From the NCBI GenBank assembly GCA_015488735.1, contig WFNG01000062.1:1-42527 (forward strand): DNA of 42,527 bases, in the 5' to 3' direction. The position numbers and the translations under genes are program-made. Each line of letters opens with the position of its first letter. Position 1 is the first letter of the stretch. Source of the stretch: Bacteroidales bacterium (lineage in GTDB: Bacteria; Bacteroidota; Bacteroidia; Bacteroidales; F082). The notes under the pieces are model-generated. The model ran no database searches, was not told where the DNA came from, and saw nothing but the letters and a program-made list of their open reading frames with translations. Shown here piece by piece: positions 11,132-21,685 of this stretch.

Positions 11132-12979
11132 TTAATCTTTCTTTTTCTCTTTGGCATTGAGATTATTTCCACTTTTTTCTGCGAGTCCTAAATCCCCATA
11201 ATCATTTGTATAGCCGTAAAGTCTGTCCAGTTTGGTTTTATAAACTTTTTTTAACTGGTTTCTTTTCAACTTCAGCGTGGGGGATAATTCACCGGTTTCT
11301 GTGGACCATTCGCGACAGGTCAGTTCGAATTTTTTTATCTGGCGATGGCGTCCCAACGTTTTGTTAATGCGGTCTATCTCTTCCTGGTAGCGACTTCTGA
11401 CCTTTTCATGATGAACCAAGTCCAGATTATCACGGAACTTCACATTATTCTTAAAACACCAGCCATGGAGATAATGAAAGTTCGGGCTGATAATGGCCGC
11501 AGCAAATTTTTCACCTTCACCAACCACCAGAATTTGTTCAATAAGCGGTGATTCTTTAAATCGGTTCTCCACAATCTGCGGAGCTACATATTTCCCGGTT
11601 GAAAGTTTAAAAATTTCTTTTTTCCGGTCGGTAATCCAGAGTGCAGTGTTTTCGATTTTCCCGATGTCGCCGGTATGGAAAAAGCCTTCTTCATCAATAA
11701 CCTCTTTCGTTTTCTCCGGATCTTTGTAATAGCCAACCATCAGGCTGGGACCACGCATAAGAATTTCGCCATCTTCGGCCATTTTTACTTCTATATTGTC
11801 CAACACCGGCCCAACGCTACCCGCTTGCATGGTGGGGTAATCGCCATAGTTAACAGAAATAACGGGAGAAGTTTCGGTGAGTCCGTATCCCTGGGCTATT
11901 TTAATACCAACAGCACTAAATAACCTTGCCAGTCTGGGTTGCAGAGCAGCACCTCCAGAAATAATCACTTTCAGTTCGCCACCGAGTGCCTCTTTCCATT
12001 TGCTGAATATTAGTTTTTGGGCAATACCTAATTTTCTATTATACATTTTACTGCGTTTTGCCGGGTCGTCTTCGTATTTTACGCCAACTTCAACAGCCCA
12101 GTCAAACAACCAACGTTTAACACCTGTCAACTCTTTGCCTTTGAGCATTATTTTGTCGAAAAGCTTTTCCAGTACACGGGGAACAGTAGTAAAACCATGG
12201 GGATGTACTTCGTTCAGGTTTTCTCCAATGGTATCAATGCTTTCTACATAATAAACGCCTAATCCTTTGGCCTGGACAAGATAATTTACCATTCGTTCCA
12301 GTACATGACACATGGGTAGAAAGCTGAGCCAGCGATCACCGGCATCCACATCCAGCAGGTTGCGGGTAGCTGTAACATTGCTCATGAAATTATTGTGCGT
12401 CAACACAACTCCTTTAGAGCGGCCCGTAGTGCCAGAGGTATAAATGATAGAAAGTATATCGTCTTTAGAAATACTCTTCTTTATTTTTAGAAGTTCTTTT
12501 TCAAATTTGGCTTTACTTTTTTTACCCAACTCTAATATTTCGTTCCAATTTGGCACATCATTAATGTTGTCGTAGGTATAAATTTTTTCAATTTTTGGAA
12601 CTTCATCAGCGAGGGGCTTAATTTTATCATAATACTCTTTGGACGACAAGATGGCAAGGCGCGCATCGGAATGTTCTAAGATATAACGATGTTCGGCAGG
12701 TCCAATATTGGGATAAACTGGTACGTGTATCACTCCGATTTGTCCCATTCCCATATCAGCAAAATTCCATTCGGGCCGGTTGTTGGAAATGGTTAGAATT
12801 TTGTCTCCTTTTTTAAATCCCAACGCCAACAATCCGTAGCTGAAGTTGTCAACTGTTTCTTTGTACTCATCGGTACTGAAATTTTCCCATTGTCCGTTTC
12901 TTTTGATGGAGAGGGCTACTTTTTGGTTGTACTCATTGACGTTTTGGTCTAGGATATCAAAATTTCTTTCAAGCTTCAT
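11132..12979 (-). CDS. Long-chain fatty acid-CoA ligase (copy 1)
   Basis: The 615-residue AMP-forming ligase activates fatty acids with ATP and CoA. The P-loop motif IIYTSGTTGRSKGVVLTH, the A5 motif AQGYGLTETSPV, the A7 segment FFHTGDIGKI and the A8 hinge TDRKKEIFKLSTGKYVAP are complete. The short C-terminal lid and YGYTND tail resemble eukaryote-like long-chain synthetases (FAA type) common in Bacteroidota. It is the last gene of the fad cluster. The preceding gene is a close paralog, near identical over long stretches such as HRQIKKFELTCR, with divergence concentrated around residues 150-270 and the C terminus. Confidence 0.95.
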   Translation of the reverse strand: MKLERNFDILDQNVNEYNQKVALSIKRNGQWENFSTDEYKETVDNFSYGLLALGFKKGDKILTISNNRPEWNFADMGMGQIGVIHVPVYPNIGPAEHRYILEHSDARLAILSSKEYYDKIKPLADEVPKIEKIYTYDNINDVPNWNEILELGKKSKAKFEKELLKIKKSISKDDILSIIYTSGTTGRSKGVVLTHNNFMSNVTATRNLLDVDAGDRWLSFLPMCHVLERMVNYLVQAKGLGVYYVESIDTIGENLNEVHPHGFTTVPRVLEKLFDKIMLKGKELTGVKRWLFDWAVEVGVKYEDDPAKRSKMYNRKLGIAQKLIFSKWKEALGGELKVIISGGAALQPRLARLFSAVGIKIAQGYGLTETSPVISVNYGDYPTMQAGSVGPVLDNIEVKMAEDGEILMRGPSLMVGYYKDPEKTKEVIDEEGFFHTGDIGKIENTALWITDRKKEIFKLSTGKYVAPQIVENRFKESPLIEQILVVGEGEKFAAAIISPNFHYLHGWCFKNNVKFRDNLDLVHHEKVRSRYQEEIDRINKTLGRHRQIKKFELTCREWSTETGELSPTLKLKRNQLKKVYKTKLDRLYGYTNDYGDLGLAEKSGNNLNAKEKKKD

Positions 12980-13043
12980 GACTTATTTTGTGGAGGTTAA
13001 TGATAAAAACTTAATCTATATATTGTAAAACAAAAATGTATAA

Positions 13044-14876
13044 TCACTTTGAACCGGTCTGCGTTTCCTTCCCATTGTTTAATCCCAAATCACCAAAGTC
13101 TTTCGTATAGCCGTAAATATGGTCCAGCTTTACTTTATAAAGTTTTTTCAGATAAACCCGCTTTAATTTTAAAGTGGGCGACAGCTCACCGGTTTCTGTA
13201 GTCCAATCGCGGCAGGTCAGTTCAAATTTCTTAATCTGACGATGGCGCCCCAGCGTTTTGTTAATCCTGTCCACTTCTTCCTGATAACGTGCCAATACTT
13301 TAGGATGGCGGACAAGGTCGGTGTTGTCCCTAAATTTCACACCATTTTTAAAGCACCATCCGTGCAGATAATGGAAATTGGGGCTGATAATGGCGGCAGC
13401 AAATTTCTCTCCTTCGCCAACCACCAGAATTTGTTCAATAAGCGGTGATTCTTTAAAACGGTTTTCTACAATTTGCGGAGCCACATACTTTCCGGTTGAG
13501 AGTTTAAAGATTTCTTTTTTCCGGTCGGTAATCCAAAGCACACCATTTTCCATTTTACCAATATCTCCGGTATGAAAAAACCCTTCTTTATCGATGGCCT
13601 CTTTTGTCTTTTCAGGGTCTTTGTAATAACCCACCATCCGGCTGGGCCCACGCATAAGGATTTCGCCATCTTCAGCCATTTTTACTTCAATATTGCCCAG
13701 TATTGTACCGACACTACCAGCCTGCATTGTGGGGTAATTACCATGATTCACAGAAATTACAGGAGAAGTTTCCGTTAGTCCGTATCCCTGTGCCACACTG
13801 ATGCCTGCGGCACTAAATACACGTGCCAGCCTGGGTTGCAGGGCGGCGCCACCTGAAATAACCACTTTCAGCTCTCCGCCTAAACCTTCTATCCATTTGC
13901 TGAAAATCAATTTCCGGGCAATGGATAGTTTAAAATCGTATAATGGTTTCCTTTTAGCAGGATCATCTTCGTAAGCCATTCCCAATTCAACAGCCCAGTC
14001 GAACAATCTTCTTTTTATTCCGGTAAGGCTTTTGCCATTAAGAATTATTTTATCAAATAGCTTTTCCAGTACCCTTGGTACGGCAGTAAAACCATGAATA
14101 TGGATTTCATTTAAATTTTCGCCAATGGTATCAATACTTTCGGCATAATATACTTCTAAGCCCAGTGCCTGAACCGAATAGTTAACCATGCGTTCGAGCA
14201 CATGGCATAAAGGGAGAAAGCTAAGCCATCTTTCCCCTGCCTCAACAGGTTGCAGAGGAGCGGCAGCCATCACGTTACTCATAAAATTATAATGGGTAAG
14301 CATGACACCTTTTGCACGTCCGGTTGTGCCTGACGTGTATATGATAGAGAGCAAATCGTCTTTAGAAATGCTTTCTTTAATCTGAGGAAGTTTTTTTTCG
14401 AACTTTTCTTTATTTTTTTTACCCAGTTCCACAATTTCACTCCAATGTGGAACACCCGAAATCTTATCGTAAGAATAGATATTCTCAATTTTTGGCACTT
14501 CAGCTGCCAATGGTTTTATTTTATCGTAAAACTCTTTGGAAGAAACAATTACCATTCTTGCTTCGGAATGTTCCAGAACATAACGATGTTCGCGGGGACC
14601 AATATTGGGATAAACAGGAACATGTACTACTCCGATTTGTCCCATTCCCATATCAGCAAAATTCCATTCGGGCCGGTTATTGGAGATGGTCAGAATTTTA
14701 TCTCCTTTTTTAAATCCCAACGCCATCAACCCGTAGCTAAAATTGTCAGCGGCTTCTTTATATTCGTCTGTACTAAAATTTTCCCAACGACCATTTCTTT
14801 TTATGGAAAGAGCTATTTTCTGGTTATGTTCTTTGACAATCTGGTCTAGAATGTCAAAATTTCTTTCGAGTTTCAT
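13044..14876 (-). CDS. Long-chain fatty acid-CoA ligase (copy 2)
   Basis: The 610-residue tandem paralog of the previous ligase keeps the same motifs (IIYTSGTTGRAKGVMLTH, AQGYGLTETSPV, FFHTGDIGKM, TDRKKEIFKLSTGKYVAP). Differences in the substrate-tunnel half, for example AAPLQPVEAGERW against TRNLLDVDAGDRW, may reflect different chain-length preference. It lies 64 bases upstream of copy 1 and 71 bases downstream of the thioesterase gene, all on the minus strand. Local duplication followed by divergence is the simplest explanation. Confidence 0.95.
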   Translation of the reverse strand: MKLERNFDILDQIVKEHNQKIALSIKRNGRWENFSTDEYKEAADNFSYGLMALGFKKGDKILTISNNRPEWNFADMGMGQIGVVHVPVYPNIGPREHRYVLEHSEARMVIVSSKEFYDKIKPLAAEVPKIENIYSYDKISGVPHWSEIVELGKKNKEKFEKKLPQIKESISKDDLLSIIYTSGTTGRAKGVMLTHYNFMSNVMAAAPLQPVEAGERWLSFLPLCHVLERMVNYSVQALGLEVYYAESIDTIGENLNEIHIHGFTAVPRVLEKLFDKIILNGKSLTGIKRRLFDWAVELGMAYEDDPAKRKPLYDFKLSIARKLIFSKWIEGLGGELKVVISGGAALQPRLARVFSAAGISVAQGYGLTETSPVISVNHGNYPTMQAGSVGTILGNIEVKMAEDGEILMRGPSRMVGYYKDPEKTKEAIDKEGFFHTGDIGKMENGVLWITDRKKEIFKLSTGKYVAPQIVENRFKESPLIEQILVVGEGEKFAAAIISPNFHYLHGWCFKNGVKFRDNTDLVRHPKVLARYQEEVDRINKTLGRHRQIKKFELTCRDWTTETGELSPTLKLKRVYLKKLYKVKLDHIYGYTKDFGDLGLNNGKETQTGSK

Positions 14877-14947: not shown

Positions 14948-15427
14948 TTATTTTGCTTTAAATGTCCAGGTAAAATGAAATTCAGAAACCTGATTTCCCT
15001 GCGCATCAATGCCGATAGAGGTAATGGTAACTGTCCGGCCTTCCCCCGTTTTCAAGGTTTCTTTCACTGCCTGGCTGATGGCTTCCCCATCGTTACAGGT
15101 AAATACCACCTTACTTTGTGCTTTTTTGGTAAATTTTGCCTGGGTATCAAAAACCAACATGGATACCGGCCGTGATGCTGCTTTAACTTCGGCAATAGCC
15201 ATTGCTCCTGAAGAAAGTTCCGCAGCCATGGACTGCACGGCAAAATACAATGACCGGAAAGGATTCTTTGTCAGGTAATTGTATGGCACAGAAACGCTGG
15301 CATGTTTTTCGTCAAGTTCTACAATACGAAGACCATTCAACAGTCCCATGGGCATGTGCCTGATAAAAAACATCTTTAGCCGAAAGGGATTATTGGCCAG
15401 TTTCCTGAAATCTGTGGTTTTTGCCAT
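14948..15427 (-). CDS. DUF4442/PaaI-like hotdog thioesterase
   Basis: The 159-residue protein fits the single-domain hotdog fold: a short N-terminal helix, HASVSVPYNYLTKNPFRSLYFAVQSMAAELSSGAMA as the central helix region, and beta strands to the end. The NPF-RSLYFAVQ stretch is typical of DUF4442 proteins. Acyl-CoA hydrolysis is the likely activity by family and by its place between acyl-CoA dehydrogenase and acyl-CoA ligases; substrate is unknown. It may release fatty acids or free CoA when intermediates accumulate. A strong hairpin precedes it (15447-15480). Confidence 0.82.
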   Translation of the reverse strand: MAKTTDFRKLANNPFRLKMFFIRHMPMGLLNGLRIVELDEKHASVSVPYNYLTKNPFRSLYFAVQSMAAELSSGAMAIAEVKAASRPVSMLVFDTQAKFTKKAQSKVVFTCNDGEAISQAVKETLKTGEGRTVTITSIGIDAQGNQVSEFHFTWTFKAK

Positions 15428-15492: not shown

Positions 15493-17277
15493 CTAAAAAT
15501 TATATTTATTAGCATCAATCAGTTGAGCTGCTATTTTTCTGCGGGCTTCTTTTACGTTCACAGGATTAACTTTGGTAAAGCGTTTCATTCCCATGAGCAT
15601 GCCTGCCTGTTCGTCACCTTCGGCAAAAGAGTTAACGGCATCAACACCGATTTTATTCATTTTTGCAGCCGTGTCATACAAGAATACATCGAGAATATCT
15701 TTGTAAATCTCCAGCTTTTTCTCATCGTACATGCCGGCCAGTTTTTCCACGCGCAACAGTGTCGATTCAGCAGCATAAGTGTGCATGAGCATGTCGGCAA
15801 TGTTTAACATAATCTCCTGCTCATTTTGAAATGTTGTGGTATATTTCTGCAAAGCAGCGCCGGCAACCATAAGGATAGCCTTTTTGAAATTCAAAATGGT
15901 TTTATGTTTGGCTTCGAAATAATCCATAGAAGTACTTCCGAAATCGGGAATTCCCATCAATTCTTTGGCGACGGCTTTTGCAGGATTCAATAAATCTATT
16001 TCCCCTTTCATCCCTCTTTTCAACAATTCGCCAACAGCTACCATACGGTTGATTTCGTTGGTACCTTCGAAAATACGGTTGATTCTGGAGTCGCGGTAAG
16101 CACGTTCCACAACGGTTTCAGCCGAATAGCCCATACCACCAAATATCTGAACGCCTTCATCTACCACAAAATCGAGTGCTTCAGAGCCAAACACTTTGGC
16201 AATAGAAGCCTCAATTGCAAACTGGCGAATACCTTCAATACCGGCACGACCTTTGTCCATACCTTCTGCAATTAAAGATTCGATGGCATCGTCAATATTT
16301 TGGCTGGCACGATAGGTGAGTGATTCGGTGGCAAAGGTACGGATGACCATTTCGGCTAATTTGGTTTTGATGGCACCAAAGTTGGCAATGGCCATCCCAA
16401 ATTGTTTTCTTTCAGTGGCATACTGTACACTGGCATCGATGGTAGCTTTTGAAGCTCCTGTTGTGGCTGCAGCCAGTTTAATACGACCGAGGTTTAGTAT
16501 ATACAAAGCAATTTTAAATCCTCCATTACGATCACCGAGAAGGTTTTCTACCGGAATTTCGGCATTATCAAAGAAAATCTGGATAGTGGAAGAGCCACGG
16601 ATTCCCATTTTGTCTTCTTCAGCACCGAAAGTAAACCCGGGAGTATTGCGTTCTACGATAAAAGCGCTCAGGTTTTTGTCGTCTTCAATTTTTGCATAAA
16701 CGATGAATAAGTCGGCAACACCACCATTGGTAATCCACATTTTACTACCATTCAGGATATAGTGTTTTCCATCTTTACTCAATGTGGCTTTTGTTTTGCC
16801 ATTGTTTGGATCGGAGCCGGCATCTGGTTCTGTAAGGGCATAAGCGCCTATGTATTCGCCCGAAGCCAGTTTGGGAAGGTATTTCTTTTTTTGTTCTTCA
16901 TTTCCGAAATAAAGGATAGGAAGTGTTCCAATTCCTGTATGGGCTGAATAGGCAACAGCAAAACTGTATCCTTTTCCCATTTCTTCTACGGTAAGCATGG
17001 AGGTAACAAAGTTCTGGCCGAAACCTTCGTATTCTTCCGGTACGGATATTCCCAGCAATCCCAGTTCCCCGGCATCCTTCATTAATTTTATAAGTAACTC
17101 GTTGTCATGATGTTCCAGTTTATCAATATTTGGAATAGCCTGCGTTTCTGTAAAATCGCGGCAGGTTTGGGCCATCATTTGCTGTTCTTCATTAAACTCT
17201 TCCGGAATAAAAATATCGGCGGCTTTTGTTTCCCTGATAAGAAATTCGCCTCCTTTTATTGCTTTATTGTCTGACAT
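15493..17277 (-). CDS. fadE: Acyl-CoA dehydrogenase, FadE (B. subtilis) type
   Basis: The 594-residue FAD enzyme makes the trans-2 double bond in the first beta-oxidation step. YALTEPDAGSDPN and MWITNGGVADLFIVYAK bind FAD and substrate; the catalytic Glu is in NRIFEGTNEINRM. About 170 residues extend beyond the standard 380-residue core, as in VLCAD-like enzymes. From MSDNK the length equals that of Bacillus FadE, which supports starting at 17277 rather than 17340. It follows fadA after a hairpin. The electron-transfer flavoprotein it needs is not in the window. Confidence 0.94.
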   Translation of the reverse strand: MSDNKAIKGGEFLIRETKAADIFIPEEFNEEQQMMAQTCRDFTETQAIPNIDKLEHHDNELLIKLMKDAGELGLLGISVPEEYEGFGQNFVTSMLTVEEMGKGYSFAVAYSAHTGIGTLPILYFGNEEQKKKYLPKLASGEYIGAYALTEPDAGSDPNNGKTKATLSKDGKHYILNGSKMWITNGGVADLFIVYAKIEDDKNLSAFIVERNTPGFTFGAEEDKMGIRGSSTIQIFFDNAEIPVENLLGDRNGGFKIALYILNLGRIKLAAATTGASKATIDASVQYATERKQFGMAIANFGAIKTKLAEMVIRTFATESLTYRASQNIDDAIESLIAEGMDKGRAGIEGIRQFAIEASIAKVFGSEALDFVVDEGVQIFGGMGYSAETVVERAYRDSRINRIFEGTNEINRMVAVGELLKRGMKGEIDLLNPAKAVAKELMGIPDFGSTSMDYFEAKHKTILNFKKAILMVAGAALQKYTTTFQNEQEIMLNIADMLMHTYAAESTLLRVEKLAGMYDEKKLEIYKDILDVFLYDTAAKMNKIGVDAVNSFAEGDEQAGMLMGMKRFTKVNPVNVKEARRKIAAQLIDANKYNF

Positions 17278-17354: not shown

Positions 17355-18527
17355 TTATAACATTTCATAAATACCGGCTGCTCCCTGGCCTGTACCGATA
17401 CACATGGTTACCATACCGTATTTTTTATTACGGCGTTTCAGCTCATTCAACATTTGAACTGTCAGTTTTGCTCCTGTACATCCCAATGGGTGTCCCAAAG
17501 CGATAGCACCACCGTTTACATTAAGAATATCAGTGTTGATACCGAGTTCTTTCACAACTACCATCGATTGTGTTGCAAAAGCTTCATTGAGTTCAATCAA
17601 ATCTATGTCGTCCAGTTTCATTCCGGAGTGTTTCAGTACTTTCGGAATGGCTTTCATTGGGCCGACTCCCATTTTGTACGGTTCTACACCGGATACCTGA
17701 TAGTCCACCAGACGGGCAATAGGTTTCAGGTTATAACGTTTCAAGGCTTTCTCGGATACCACAAGAACAAAAGCGGCTCCATCAGACATCTGAGAAGAGT
17801 TACCTGCAGTAGAAACGCCATCAGGAGCAAAGGCAGGTCTCAATTTCGACAATGTTTCAACGGTTGTCCCTCTTCTGGGACCTTCATCTGTATCAAAGAT
17901 TTTATCACGGGTTTTCATTACCCCGTTTTCATAATAATTTTCTTTGACAGTGAAAGGTACAATTTGGTCTTTAAAATAGCCTTTATCAATGGCATTCAAT
18001 GCTTTTGCATAAGAATTAGCTGCAAATTCATCCAAATCAGCACGTTTCAAATTGTATTCGCGGGCTACCATTTCGGAGGTTAATCCCATACTCAGCCACC
18101 AGTTTGGATTGGTTTTGGAATAGTCGGGGTTAGGAACCATACGCCAGCCCCCCATGTTGATCATCGACATGGTTTCTGCGCCACCGGCAAGAATCACATC
18201 GGCAATCCCGGCACTAATTTTTGCAGAAGCAATGGCAATAGATTCGATTCCGGATGAGCAGAAACGATTAACGGTAGAACCGGGAACATCGACGGTGTCC
18301 AATGCCATGAGCGAAAGTAAACGCCCCATATTCATACCTGTTTCTGCTTCAGGAAAAGCATTTCCGACGACCACGTCGTCAATTTCTGATTTTTCAATTT
18401 GTGGAAAGTCATTCAACAAATGTCTGATGACCGTTACAGCAATGTCATCGGGACGCGTAAAACGCAGTGTGCCCCGCGGGGCTTTGCCAATTGCCGAACG
18501 ATATCCACCTACTATATATGCATTCAT
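17355..18527 (-). CDS. fadA: Acetyl-CoA acyltransferase (3-ketoacyl-CoA thiolase)
   Basis: The 390-residue thiolase cleaves 3-ketoacyl-CoA with CoA in the last beta-oxidation step. Nucleophile Cys90 is in NRFCSSGIES, the active-site His is in GGAIALGHPLGCTGAK, and the second Cys is in MCIGTGQGAAG. Length and motif order are complete. Starting 35 bases after fadN, it forms the fadNA pair known from Firmicutes (FadA, about 391 residues). Confidence 0.94.
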   Translation of the reverse strand: MNAYIVGGYRSAIGKAPRGTLRFTRPDDIAVTVIRHLLNDFPQIEKSEIDDVVVGNAFPEAETGMNMGRLLSLMALDTVDVPGSTVNRFCSSGIESIAIASAKISAGIADVILAGGAETMSMINMGGWRMVPNPDYSKTNPNWWLSMGLTSEMVAREYNLKRADLDEFAANSYAKALNAIDKGYFKDQIVPFTVKENYYENGVMKTRDKIFDTDEGPRRGTTVETLSKLRPAFAPDGVSTAGNSSQMSDGAAFVLVVSEKALKRYNLKPIARLVDYQVSGVEPYKMGVGPMKAIPKVLKHSGMKLDDIDLIELNEAFATQSMVVVKELGINTDILNVNGGAIALGHPLGCTGAKLTVQMLNELKRRNKKYGMVTMCIGTGQGAAGIYEML

Positions 18528-18562: not shown

Positions 18563-20965
18563 TTAGTTTCTGAGGATTTTACCTTTGGTAATCAGGCTAT
18601 TGATACGTTCCAACGTTTTGCGCTGCATACAAAGCTCCATAAAGGCTTTTCGTTCCAGGTCGAGCAAATACTGTTCGGAAACTTGTGTAAGTGGTTGCGA
18701 TATTTCGCCACCTGCTATAACATGCCCTAATTTTTCAGCGATTAGGCCATCGTGTTCTGACATATAATGCCCTGTTTTAAAACCGTCAACACCAACGTTA
18801 ACCATTCCAAGGGCTTCTTTACCCAGCACTTTAATGTTGTTTCTTGGAGCCGGTTGTGAATATCCTTTGTCGGCCATTTCAATAGCAACCTTTTTGGCGT
18901 AAGCCAACTGATGTGCGCGGCTGACAATAATTTCGTCAATACCAGGGCGAAGATAACCCAGGTCAAAAGCTTCGTAACCTGAAGTAGAGACTTTAGCCTG
19001 TCCGATGCTCAGGTAACGGTTCAGGAACTGGTTTGTACGGATATCCCCCGGGTGAAGTTCATCACCAAGACGAAGGGCAAATTCTTTGGTACCGCCGCCA
19101 CCAGGAATCAATCCAACACCAAATTCAACTAATCCCATATATGTTTCAGCATGAGCAATCACTTTGTCGCTGTGCATACATACTTCACAGCCACCACCCA
19201 GGGCCATTCCGTGAGGAGCAGCAACTACCGGGATGGAAGAATAACGCAAACGCATGGTGGTTTTCTGGAACCACTGAACGGCCATGTTCAAATCTTCCCA
19301 TTCCTGTTCAATGGCCAACATGTAAATCATGCCTACGTTGGCACCGGCAGAGAAGTTGTCGCCTTCGTTTGAAATAACCAGTGCTTTGTAATCGGCTTCA
19401 GCCATGTCAACAGCCTTGTTCAGACCTTCCAGTGTTCCCTGACCAATAGTATTCATTTTAGAGTGGAATTCGACGTTCAGAACGCCATCGCCAAGGTCGA
19501 AAATGCTGACATCGTTGTTTTCCCAAACTACGTTGGTATCGCGAAGTAAAGCCAGTGAAAGTTTGTTTTCCTGACCGGGAACTTCTTTGTAGGCTTTTGT
19601 TTTTAAATCATAATAATATTTTCGTCCTTCTTTAACGGTAAAGAAAGAAGGGCATCCGGCATCGAGCATATCGTAAACCCATTGTGCAGGTTTGTTACCG
19701 GCTTCTTCCATGGCTTTAACCGTTTCGGCAACGCCAAGAGAATCCCAGGTTTCAAAAGGCCCGATTTTCCAACCAAATCCGGCATTCATGGCATCGTCTG
19801 CCTTGTAGATGTCTTCGGTTATTTCCGGGATACGGTTAGAGGTAAACTGGAACAGGCTATAGAAAGAAGCACGGTAGAAATCGCCGGCTTTACCTTTGTC
19901 TGCCAATAAAACGGGAAAACGTTTGTGCAAATCATCAATCCCCTTTGTTTTTTCCAAAACAGAAAATTTCGGACGGGGATCTTCTTTATATTCCAGTGTT
20001 TCAAAGTCGAGTGTAAGGAATTTTTTCTTTCCGTCTTCAACTACCTTTTTAAAGAATCCTTGTTTTGTTTTCGATCCCAGCCATTTGTTATCCAGCATTT
20101 TTTGCAGATAATCAGGAATTTTAAAAGCTTCGTTGGATTCGTCATGGGTAGATTCGCGGATATAATCTGCTACATGTACCAGCGTGTCAAGGCCTACTAC
20201 ATCGGCAGTTCTGAATGTCGCAGACTTGGCACGGCCAATCACCGGACCTGTAAGTTTGTCAATTTCAGGAATGGTAAGTCCATATTCTTTCACTTTGTTG
20301 AAAAGCTCCATGATGGAGAAAGTCCCAATACGGTTTGCGATAAAGGCAGGCGTGTCTTTGGCGAGGACAGCTGTTTTGCCAAGATAGCGTCCTGCATAAT
20401 CCTCCAGAAAAGCAAGCACTTCCGGATCGGTGTATTTGGAAGGGGTAATCTCAAAAAGCTGTAGATAACGTGGAGGATTGAAGAAGTGAGTCCCGCAAAA
20501 ATGTTTCTGGAAGTCTTCACTTTTTCCTTCGGCCATATCGTTAATGGAGATACCTGAGGTATTGGATGTTACAAGTGTGCCGGGTTTCCTCAACTTGTCC
20601 ACTTTTTCAAATACCTGTTGTTTGATATCCAACCGCTCAATAACCACTTCGATTACCCAGTCACAATCTTTGATTTTGGGTAAATCATCGTCAAAGTTAC
20701 CGGTGGTAATACGTTTAGCAAACGACTTTTTGTAAATGGGCGAGGGTTTGGATTTCAGGGCAGCATTCAATGAATTGTTAACAATCCTGTTTCTGACTGC
20801 CTTACTTTCCAGTGTCAGCCCTTTTGCTTTTTCAGCATCTGTCAGTTCACGTGGCACAATATCGATGAGCAAAACCTCAAGACCGATATTGGCAAAATGA
20901 CAAGCAATGCCGGAGCCCATGACACCGGATCCCAACACTGCAACTTTTTTGATTCTACGTACCAT
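18563..20965 (-). CDS. fadN: 3-hydroxyacyl-CoA dehydrogenase / enoyl-CoA hydratase, FadN type
   Basis: The 800-residue bifunctional enzyme carries the dehydrogenase first: Rossmann VAVLGSGVMGSGIACHF near residue 8, the catalytic His in FCGTHFFNPPRY and a C-terminal dehydrogenase domain near 200-400. The enoyl-CoA hydratase domain follows at about 480-700 (FSAGANVGM oxyanion hole, GMALGGGCEV, MGLVEFGVGLIPGGGG). This order is opposite to E. coli FadB and matches Bacillus FadN (about 789 residues). It hydrates and then oxidises enoyl-CoA. It lies 24 bases after the MarR gene, so both share the regulated promoter. Confidence 0.94.
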   Translation of the reverse strand: MVRRIKKVAVLGSGVMGSGIACHFANIGLEVLLIDIVPRELTDAEKAKGLTLESKAVRNRIVNNSLNAALKSKPSPIYKKSFAKRITTGNFDDDLPKIKDCDWVIEVVIERLDIKQQVFEKVDKLRKPGTLVTSNTSGISINDMAEGKSEDFQKHFCGTHFFNPPRYLQLFEITPSKYTDPEVLAFLEDYAGRYLGKTAVLAKDTPAFIANRIGTFSIMELFNKVKEYGLTIPEIDKLTGPVIGRAKSATFRTADVVGLDTLVHVADYIRESTHDESNEAFKIPDYLQKMLDNKWLGSKTKQGFFKKVVEDGKKKFLTLDFETLEYKEDPRPKFSVLEKTKGIDDLHKRFPVLLADKGKAGDFYRASFYSLFQFTSNRIPEITEDIYKADDAMNAGFGWKIGPFETWDSLGVAETVKAMEEAGNKPAQWVYDMLDAGCPSFFTVKEGRKYYYDLKTKAYKEVPGQENKLSLALLRDTNVVWENNDVSIFDLGDGVLNVEFHSKMNTIGQGTLEGLNKAVDMAEADYKALVISNEGDNFSAGANVGMIYMLAIEQEWEDLNMAVQWFQKTTMRLRYSSIPVVAAPHGMALGGGCEVCMHSDKVIAHAETYMGLVEFGVGLIPGGGGTKEFALRLGDELHPGDIRTNQFLNRYLSIGQAKVSTSGYEAFDLGYLRPGIDEIIVSRAHQLAYAKKVAIEMADKGYSQPAPRNNIKVLGKEALGMVNVGVDGFKTGHYMSEHDGLIAEKLGHVIAGGEISQPLTQVSEQYLLDLERKAFMELCMQRKTLERINSLITKGKILRN

Positions 20966-20989: not shown

Positions 20990-21478
20990 TTAATGAACAA
21001 CATGCTCACTGTTAATTTGTTTTTCAGTTTTCTGCTTTGGTTTTGGTGCTTCTCCCAGTTCAGTGTTTACCTGTTCTTTAATAATGTCAAACACCTTTAA
21101 AAAAATGGCCATCTCTTTTTCATCAACCTTACTAAGAAGTCTTTCGTTGAAATCAAGTACCGATTTTTTAGCAATTTTTCTTCTTTCTACTCCTTTTTTC
21201 GTCAGAAATATTTTAACAACACGTTTGTCTTCAGGAGAAGTTTTGCGATATATACAGCCATCTTTTTCCATTTTTTTCAATAAACGGGTAAGACTGGAAT
21301 TTTTCATTCCCAACTGCTGTGCAAGCCGTGTGGAAGGCGTGCCCTGCCGTTCTACATAGGTCAGCAGATAACCTATTGTTTGGGTAATTCCATACTTGGC
21401 TGCTATGGAATTATACATTCTCGACAATGCAAGAGAAGTTGTTCTGATGTAAAACTCTATGGTTTCATTTAACTTCAT
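20990..21478 (-). CDS. MarR-family transcriptional regulator of the fad cluster
   Basis: The 162-residue protein has the MarR winged helix: SLALSRMYNSIAAKYGITQT, then recognition helix TRLAQQLGMKNSSLTRLLKKMEKDG and wing IYRKTSPEDKRVVKIFLTKKG. The tail is charged and low in complexity (PKPKQKTEKQ). MarR proteins bind palindromes as dimers and often release DNA on ligand binding. As first gene of the fad series it is probably autoregulated, with acyl-CoA or fatty acid as a plausible effector. The two GCATGC palindromes upstream of it are the obvious operator candidates. Confidence 0.92.
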   Translation of the reverse strand: MKLNETIEFYIRTTSLALSRMYNSIAAKYGITQTIGYLLTYVERQGTPSTRLAQQLGMKNSSLTRLLKKMEKDGCIYRKTSPEDKRVVKIFLTKKGVERRKIAKKSVLDFNERLLSKVDEKEMAIFLKVFDIIKEQVNTELGEAPKPKQKTEKQINSEHVVH

Positions 21479-21495
21479 CTCATTTTCTGTTTATT

Positions 21496-21505
21496 ACGCA
21501 TGCGT
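21496..21505. promoter_or_regulatory. ACGCATGCGT palindrome near the fad transcription start
   Basis: A perfect 10-bp palindrome covers the expected start site of the fad promoter. Its centre is 32 bp, about three helical turns, from the second GCATGC palindrome. A bound MarR dimer here would block transcription. Confidence 0.6.
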
Positions 21506-21506
21506 A

Positions 21507-21538
21507 CAAAAATAAACCAAAAATAGTTCGCATGCAAA
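21507..21538 (-). promoter_or_regulatory. Promoter of the marR-fad operon
   Basis: On the minus strand TTTG (21538-21535), a 20-base spacer and TATTTTTG (21514-21507) match the Bacteroidota -33/-7 consensus. The predicted start is close to 21500, leaving a leader of about 22 bases before the MarR ATG at 21478. A second TATTTTTG lies within the spacer, but lacks a well-placed upstream TTTG. Confidence 0.75.
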
Positions 21539-21541
21539 CTA
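21524..21541. promoter_or_regulatory. TAGTTnGCATGCnAACTA palindrome over the -33 box
   Basis: TAGTT-C-GCATGC-A-AACTA is an 18-bp palindrome, broken only at the two n positions. It overlaps the TTTG -33 element. Together with ACGCATGCGT it brackets the promoter, as expected for a MarR operator pair. Confidence 0.65.
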
Positions 21542-21685
21542 TTTTTTGAAAAATTAACATTTAGATTTATTCTAAACGGCTTTATTCAAACGTTTGCACA
21601 CGAAAACCTGCGTTTTATGGCGAAACCGGTTTTCTTTCGACTGTTTATAAATAACAATTGTTTTACTTTCAAACTTTTTACCGGG

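Follow-up and report, generated by a model that had tools for sequence, protein, structure and literature searches.

The window, i.e., the whole stretch of 42,527 nucleotides analysed here, carries a beta-oxidation operon that is complete and has its regulator gene in the first position, where the initial annotation had also placed marR. The genes of the operon and the elements in front of it are as follows.

20990-21478, minus strand: MarR-family winged-helix regulator, 162 aa (Pfam MarR, 1.8e-11)
18563-20965, minus strand: FadB-type 3-hydroxyacyl-CoA dehydrogenase/enoyl-CoA hydratase, 800 aa (Pfam/NCBIfam)
17355-18527, minus strand: acetyl-CoA acyltransferase (thiolase, FadA-like), 390 aa (Pfam/NCBIfam)
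15493-17277, minus strand: FadE-type acyl-CoA dehydrogenase (NCBIfam NF058590, 768 bits against a cut-off of 600)
14948-15427, minus strand: DUF4442 hotdog-type thioesterase-like protein (Pfam PF14539)
13044-14876, minus strand: AMP-binding acyl-CoA synthetase, first copy (Pfam PF00501)
11132-12979, minus strand: AMP-binding acyl-CoA synthetase, second (tandem) copy (Pfam PF00501)
21524-21541: core of putative operator 1 (O1), TAGTTCGCATGCAAACTA, centre 21532.5, covering the -33 box (about -40 to -23)
21519-21546: extended O1, a near-perfect 28-bp palindrome AAAAATAGTTcGCATGCaAACTATTTTT with one mismatched pair
21495-21506: putative operator 2 (O2), TACGCATGCGTA, over the predicted start (about -4 to +8), with a conserved right arm GCATGCGTAATA
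21535-21538, minus strand: -33 box TTTG, inside the promoter-distal half of O1 and 20 bp from the -7 box
21507-21514, minus strand: -7 box TATTTTTG, consensus TAnnTTTG
21502, minus strand: predicted transcription start, from the position rule for the -7 box (PMC9723704)

The acyl-CoA dehydrogenase probably starts at ATG 17277 rather than at GTG 17340. The adjacent and closely similar acyl-CoA synthetase genes (11132-14876) close the operon and resemble a tandem duplication.

Two GCATGC-centred palindromes flank a Bacteroidota-type promoter in front of the marR-fadB-thiolase-acyl-CoA dehydrogenase operon. This agrees, coordinates included, with the initial annotation, which described two such palindromes bracketing a consensus promoter, one over the -33 box and the other over the predicted start, with centres 32 bp apart; the distance between the centres is exactly 32 bp, and the ACGCATGCGT of that annotation (21496-21505, centre 21500.5) lies within TACGCATGCGTA. 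The combination TTTG-N20-TATTTTTG on the minus strand matches the Bacteroidota sigma-A promoter. Because the TAnnTTTG box occupies positions -12 to -5 of the mapped starts in Flavobacterium psychrophilum (PMC9723704), the start is predicted near 21502, within O2, with a leader of about 24 nt up to the marR ATG (21478). The promoter-distal arm of O1 appears to carry the -33 element, and the same arm of O2 to abut the -7 element; the remaining arm, GCATGCRTAnTA, would be common to both operators. A second possible -7 box (TATTTTTG in the right flank of O1) was discarded: it is absent from 8 of the 12 genus genomes, and the downstream box is kept in all of them.

Two more inverted repeats, 21560-21576 (TTTAGATTTATTCTAAA) and 21587-21596 (CAAACGTTTG), lie upstream of O1 and O2, between marR and a divergent O-methyltransferase gene. 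They are recognisable in several genomes of the genus (e.g., catttagaataaatctaaatg; gcaatcgtttgaaa) and may serve another regulator.

An orthologue of this MarR is present in eleven further genomes of the genus, and both sites and the -7 box are kept in all 12. The mean column identity in this set is 0.94 for O1, 0.96 for O2 and 0.97 for the -7 box, compared with 0.76 for the spacer, 0.68 for the leader, 0.67 further upstream and 0.85 for the start of the marR coding region. With MarR identity down to about 42%, the two-site layout with TANNTTTG and a spacing of 31-33 bp was found in 25 of the 28 marR promoters examined, and the -7 box in all 28; the layout also holds in four promoters with leaders of about 90-230 nt (L039, L041, L047, L048). 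In relatives from the same family and order, where MarR is 42-54% identical, O1 becomes TACTTGACATGCATAGTA and O2 becomes TGCAATGCATGCATAATA; within the family O1 is of the nTTGnCATGCATAGTAT type.

The fadB gene lies directly downstream of marR in 25 of 26 relatives from the genus, family and order, and it is also absent from 24 of the 25 MarR-lacking relatives searched, the single match being a fragment at a contig end. An orthologue of MarR was found in 55 of the 297 sampled Bacteroidota genomes; fadB (57-65% identity) follows marR in 28 of 29 non-self loci inspected, with a TATGCATGCATA-like palindrome before most of them. Flavobacteria and cytophagia (class names that we deduced from protein and gene content) keep the core TATGCRTGCATA before marR-fadB. 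The sites are thereby conserved over a large part of the phylum Bacteroidota. The link between the regulator and the operator was probably in place in the common ancestor of Bacteroidales, flavobacteria and cytophagia.

Two departures from this arrangement can be mentioned separately. At the locus L042 (G045:C46), the one exception among the 26 relatives, the MarR orthologue has no adjacent fadB and is divergent from a thioesterase-like gene; this marR still has a degenerate pair of sites, around TATATTTG, in front of it. In Cytophagaceae (L016-L023), MarR is 41-43% identical to the window protein and has no fadB nearby, the palindrome upstream of marR is a different one (AATAGGATGCTTGCATCCTATT), and the recognition helix is altered (LEARSLTRML versus MKNSSLTRLL). 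The latter loci represent a natural test of the co-variation between the operator and the recognition helix.

The initial annotation proposed to define the regulon by searching the genome for the palindrome. As a strict pattern this fails: the 2.88-Mb genome contains one perfect match to TAGTTnGCATGCnAACTA, and looser matches to the 18-bp pattern show no excess over the reversed-pattern control. Within the window, the pattern with at most 3 mismatches has a single match, the perfect one, against 0.21 expected from shuffles. A 2-mismatch match before an rmuC-like gene (G000:C149:686-703) and 3-mismatch matches on C135, C192, C210 and C232 were not distinguishable from chance; the R1 match at C110:6894, within a long coding frame, and the weak match at C86:19928, also within a coding frame, were treated as chance. 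The proposal holds for the degenerate form TAnTAYGCATGCRTAnTA or, in flavobacteria, for TATGCRTGCATA.

A sequence model of the marR sites finds recurring sites elsewhere in the genus genomes; the search scored 150 of about 700-1100 candidates per genome, and the list of targets is accordingly a lower bound. The genus targets read are etfBA, an Fe-S membrane oxidoreductase gene, and a gene similar to 4-hydroxybutyryl-CoA dehydratase/vinylacetyl-CoA isomerase (best PDB matches 1u8v and 6vjr). The oxidoreductase matches the "iron-sulfur-binding reductase" 9ojn (E=1.7e-44), and we take it to be EtfD-like; the mycobacterial EtfD connects beta-oxidation with respiration (PMC8593149). As a held-out test, the 300 bp before etfB and the EtfD-like gene were scanned with a matrix derived solely from marR promoters. 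The matrix finds the operator in 10 of 10 genus etfB promoters, centred at -64 to -79 (about -68), and a strong site in 10 of the 11 complete promoters of the EtfD-like gene, at about -80 to -146, with a degenerate site at the same position in the eleventh. None of 200 shuffles attains these scores, and the top tiles among 709 are the etfB and EtfD-like sites together with the marR operators. Both kinds of sites were seen only in sister genomes, as the draft assembly of the window's organism lacks etfB and the 5' part of the EtfD-like gene. The operator is common to beta-oxidation and ETF genes at separate loci, as in a FadR-like regulon.

Two further sites are present in the window's own genome. 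One, TATTACGCATGCGTAATA (G000:C102:6897-6914, L224), lies 125 bp before an octaheme cytochrome of the tetrathionate-reductase family, and recurs in five sister genomes (L227-L229, L231, L232), i.e., in six genomes in total. The other, TATTACGCATGCGTAACA on C191, adjoins a homologue of butyryl-CoA:acetate CoA-transferase, with a peroxiredoxin gene on the other side; it recurs in G005 and, before the CoA-transferase homologue, in G002.

In ten flavobacterial and cytophagial genomes, TATGCRTGCATA occurs at 39 sites versus 2-3 matches per strand for the reversed control. Of these, 29 adjoin genes of marR-fadB (11), etfB (7), ketoacyl synthase III (6), 4HBT_2 thioesterases (2), or a thiolase, an EtfD-like protein and an acyl-CoA dehydrogenase (a single site each, 3 in total). 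The rest are found at nitronate monooxygenase (3), outer-membrane barrel (3) and TonB-dependent receptor-like (3) genes, and one has no assigned gene. The sites with no obvious role in fatty-acid metabolism (nitronate monooxygenase, outer-membrane barrels, TonB-dependent receptors and the octaheme cytochrome) count against the explanation that we prefer. A gene of the nitronate monooxygenase family (PF03060) is found repeatedly behind the operator (L146, L156, L161, L075), both in flavobacteria and in the window's genus.

The window protein is a MarR-family regulator by its domain (44 bits against the Pfam cut-off of 24.6) and by its predicted fold, a standard winged helix (H-H-H-H-E-E-H-H, mean pLDDT 70). 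A search with the predicted structure returned PDB MarR matches at probability 1.00, the neighbours being MepR, ST1710, SlyA and MftR. The recognition helix and the wing arginine are conserved: S62, L63, R65, D84 and R86 are invariant across 29 homologues.

We consider it highly probable that this MarR is an autoregulated repressor, which would block the polymerase at two phased operators, be relieved by a fatty-acid-derived ligand and thereby switch a fat-degradation regulon. Binding by MarR, repression and the ligand are what we infer from the sites, the promoter fit, the conservation, the regulon sites and the co-occurrence with MarR reported here. The palindromes would be the operators of the MarR encoded just downstream, with one dimer per site; O1 and O2 being three helical turns apart, the two dimers would sit on one face of the DNA. 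With O1 over the -33 box and O2 over the region of the -7 box and the start, RNA polymerase would be excluded, and marR-fadB-fadA-fadE(-thioesterase-fadD-fadD) would be kept low, marR included, which amounts to negative autoregulation. The operon would be induced when a ligand derived from fatty acids, most probably an acyl-CoA, frees the DNA of MarR; an acyl-CoA is the most economical signal because of the targets. The same MarR would act in trans at single sites before etfBA, the gene of the EtfD-like ETF:quinone oxidoreductase and further acyl-CoA genes. Since the site is also found before etfBA and the EtfD-like gene, we propose a joint induction of beta-oxidation and its electron outlet. 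The initial annotation had offered an operator model for the control of fatty acids in Bacteroidota; the comparison supports it well, through the place of marR at the head of a beta-oxidation operon, the conservation of both palindromes and the promoter in a fixed geometry, and the presence of the same site at acyl-CoA and ETF genes.

The nature of the signal is the point at which another reading survives best. MarR may bind the sites and yet respond to a redox, electron-carrier or other metabolite cue instead of an acyl-CoA, which we regard as possible but doubtful. The regulon does hold ETF, the EtfD-like oxidoreductase, the octaheme cytochrome, an NfnA-like protein and a CoA-transferase, and OhrR, a peroxide sensor, is the closest solved MarR by profile. 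However, the core that is invariant across the classes consists of fadB, etf and acyl-CoA enzymes. The sensing cysteine of OhrR sits near the N-terminus, where the window MarR has none; its only cysteine (residue 75) is near the wing and is not conserved in family relatives. In addition, beta-oxidation is responsive to host lipids in one flavobacterium, the fish pathogen F. psychrophilum, fish mucus and plasma being strong inducers of its genes (PMC9723704); this is also independent, if indirect, support for the explanation that we prefer. No MarR regulator is mentioned in that paper's main text.

The palindromes could also serve another regulator (a MarR paralogue or a protein of another family), with marR merely one of its targets; the distribution of the etfB site bears on this. 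The etfB promoters were collected irrespective of the motif and scored with the matrix trained on marR promoters (threshold of at least 10). The site was detected in 10 of 10 genomes of the genus, in 13 of the 28 other MarR-bearing genomes and in 1 of the 29 MarR-lacking ones; the last two counts differ at Fisher p=1.6e-4 (significant also at thresholds 8 and 12), although the genomes are related, the counts are not independent, and the p-value is indicative only. Thus, 28 of 29 genomes without this MarR lack the etfB site as well, among them all 8 from the same family. Outside the genus, no etfB site is detectable in about half of the genomes that have MarR, which counts against our reading. 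The one remaining genome, G325 (a draft of 370 contigs), keeps the etfB site; no MarR orthologue was found in it, only generic MarR paralogues, and its genus-mates have the orthologue, so that either a loss in the assembly or a true loss is conceivable. This genome, and the several MarR paralogues in many genomes, speak for a different regulator. Against it, marR is the first gene behind the site in nearly every member of the family. The usual target of a MarR repressor is a palindrome of 16-20 bp overlapping the promoter of its own gene, and a palindrome of this kind overlaps the marR promoter here, as judged from sequence and conservation. We presume that a different regulator is improbable and retain the MarR encoded at the site.

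A slightly weaker alternative still is a role of MarR as activator or dual regulator, e.g., the activation of the flavobacterial ketoacyl synthase III genes. Sites do occur before these synthesis-type genes, and E. coli FadR is dual (PMC9329746); but at the marR promoter, the only one to which this argument applies, the sites overlap the -33 box and the start in a geometry that would occlude the polymerase. Finally, short GCATGC motifs are common in isolation, but chance palindromes or shared ancestry without function are hardly credible given that the sites are conserved far above the flanks and across classes, keep a fixed spacing and recur at the etfB and EtfD-like promoters.

Beyond the repressor model for the operon itself, we lean, with more reserve, towards a broader reading: a phylum-wide equivalent of FadR, with an ancient TATGCRTGCATA-core operator for beta-oxidation, the ETF/EtfD-like outlet and, in flavobacteria, lipid synthesis of the ketoacyl-synthase-III type, and with a two-operator clamp on its own operon. 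Our survey of open-access papers returned nothing on point for a MarR regulator of beta-oxidation in Bacteroidota, for GCATGC operators or for RegPrecise Bacteroidetes regulons. A fat-degradation regulon with this MarR is apparently undescribed there. The same appears to apply to the control of fatty-acid breakdown in Bacteroidota in general, although the beta-oxidation genes of F. psychrophilum respond to host lipids (PMC9723704). With a defined regulator, operator and list of targets, the question becomes testable in one strain with standard tools; the regulon could be annotated from sequence throughout a very large phylum, and ETF and the EtfD-like membrane oxidoreductase become tied to beta-oxidation in Bacteroidota.

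Among known systems, OhrR, SlyA and MepR share with the window MarR the fold and the classic autoregulation through palindromes over their own promoter; their targets and operators differ. The window protein scores below the NCBIfam cut-offs of OhrR, SlyA, MarR and every named MarR subfamily tested. For the OhrR type (NF052638) it reaches 41 bits against 200 and lacks the N-terminal sensing cysteine. Its best NCBIfam score is with BilQ, the MarR of bilirubin utilisation (NF045593, 58 bits against 125), and no bilirubin reductase gene was identified in the operon. FabT, the streptococcal repressor of fatty-acid synthesis (related PDB chain 6jbx), is likewise a MarR-family winged helix on fatty-acid genes, but it controls synthesis, whereas the window MarR sits on degradation genes; the FabT model (NF050133) gives 37.4 bits against 200, and the FabT operator is different.

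MftR of Mycobacterium is a TetR-family protein, as is FadR of Sulfolobus, and both come from other phyla than the window MarR. Both regulate fatty-acid or related genes in response to acyl-CoA (PMC6449355, PMC8728441). The system that works most alike is E. coli FadR, a beta-oxidation repressor with palindromic sites overlapping the starts, relieved by long-chain acyl-CoA (PMC9329746). It can serve as a model for the window MarR in these respects; FadR, however, belongs to the GntR family, has a different operator and no autoregulation, whereas the window MarR heads its own operon behind two operators.
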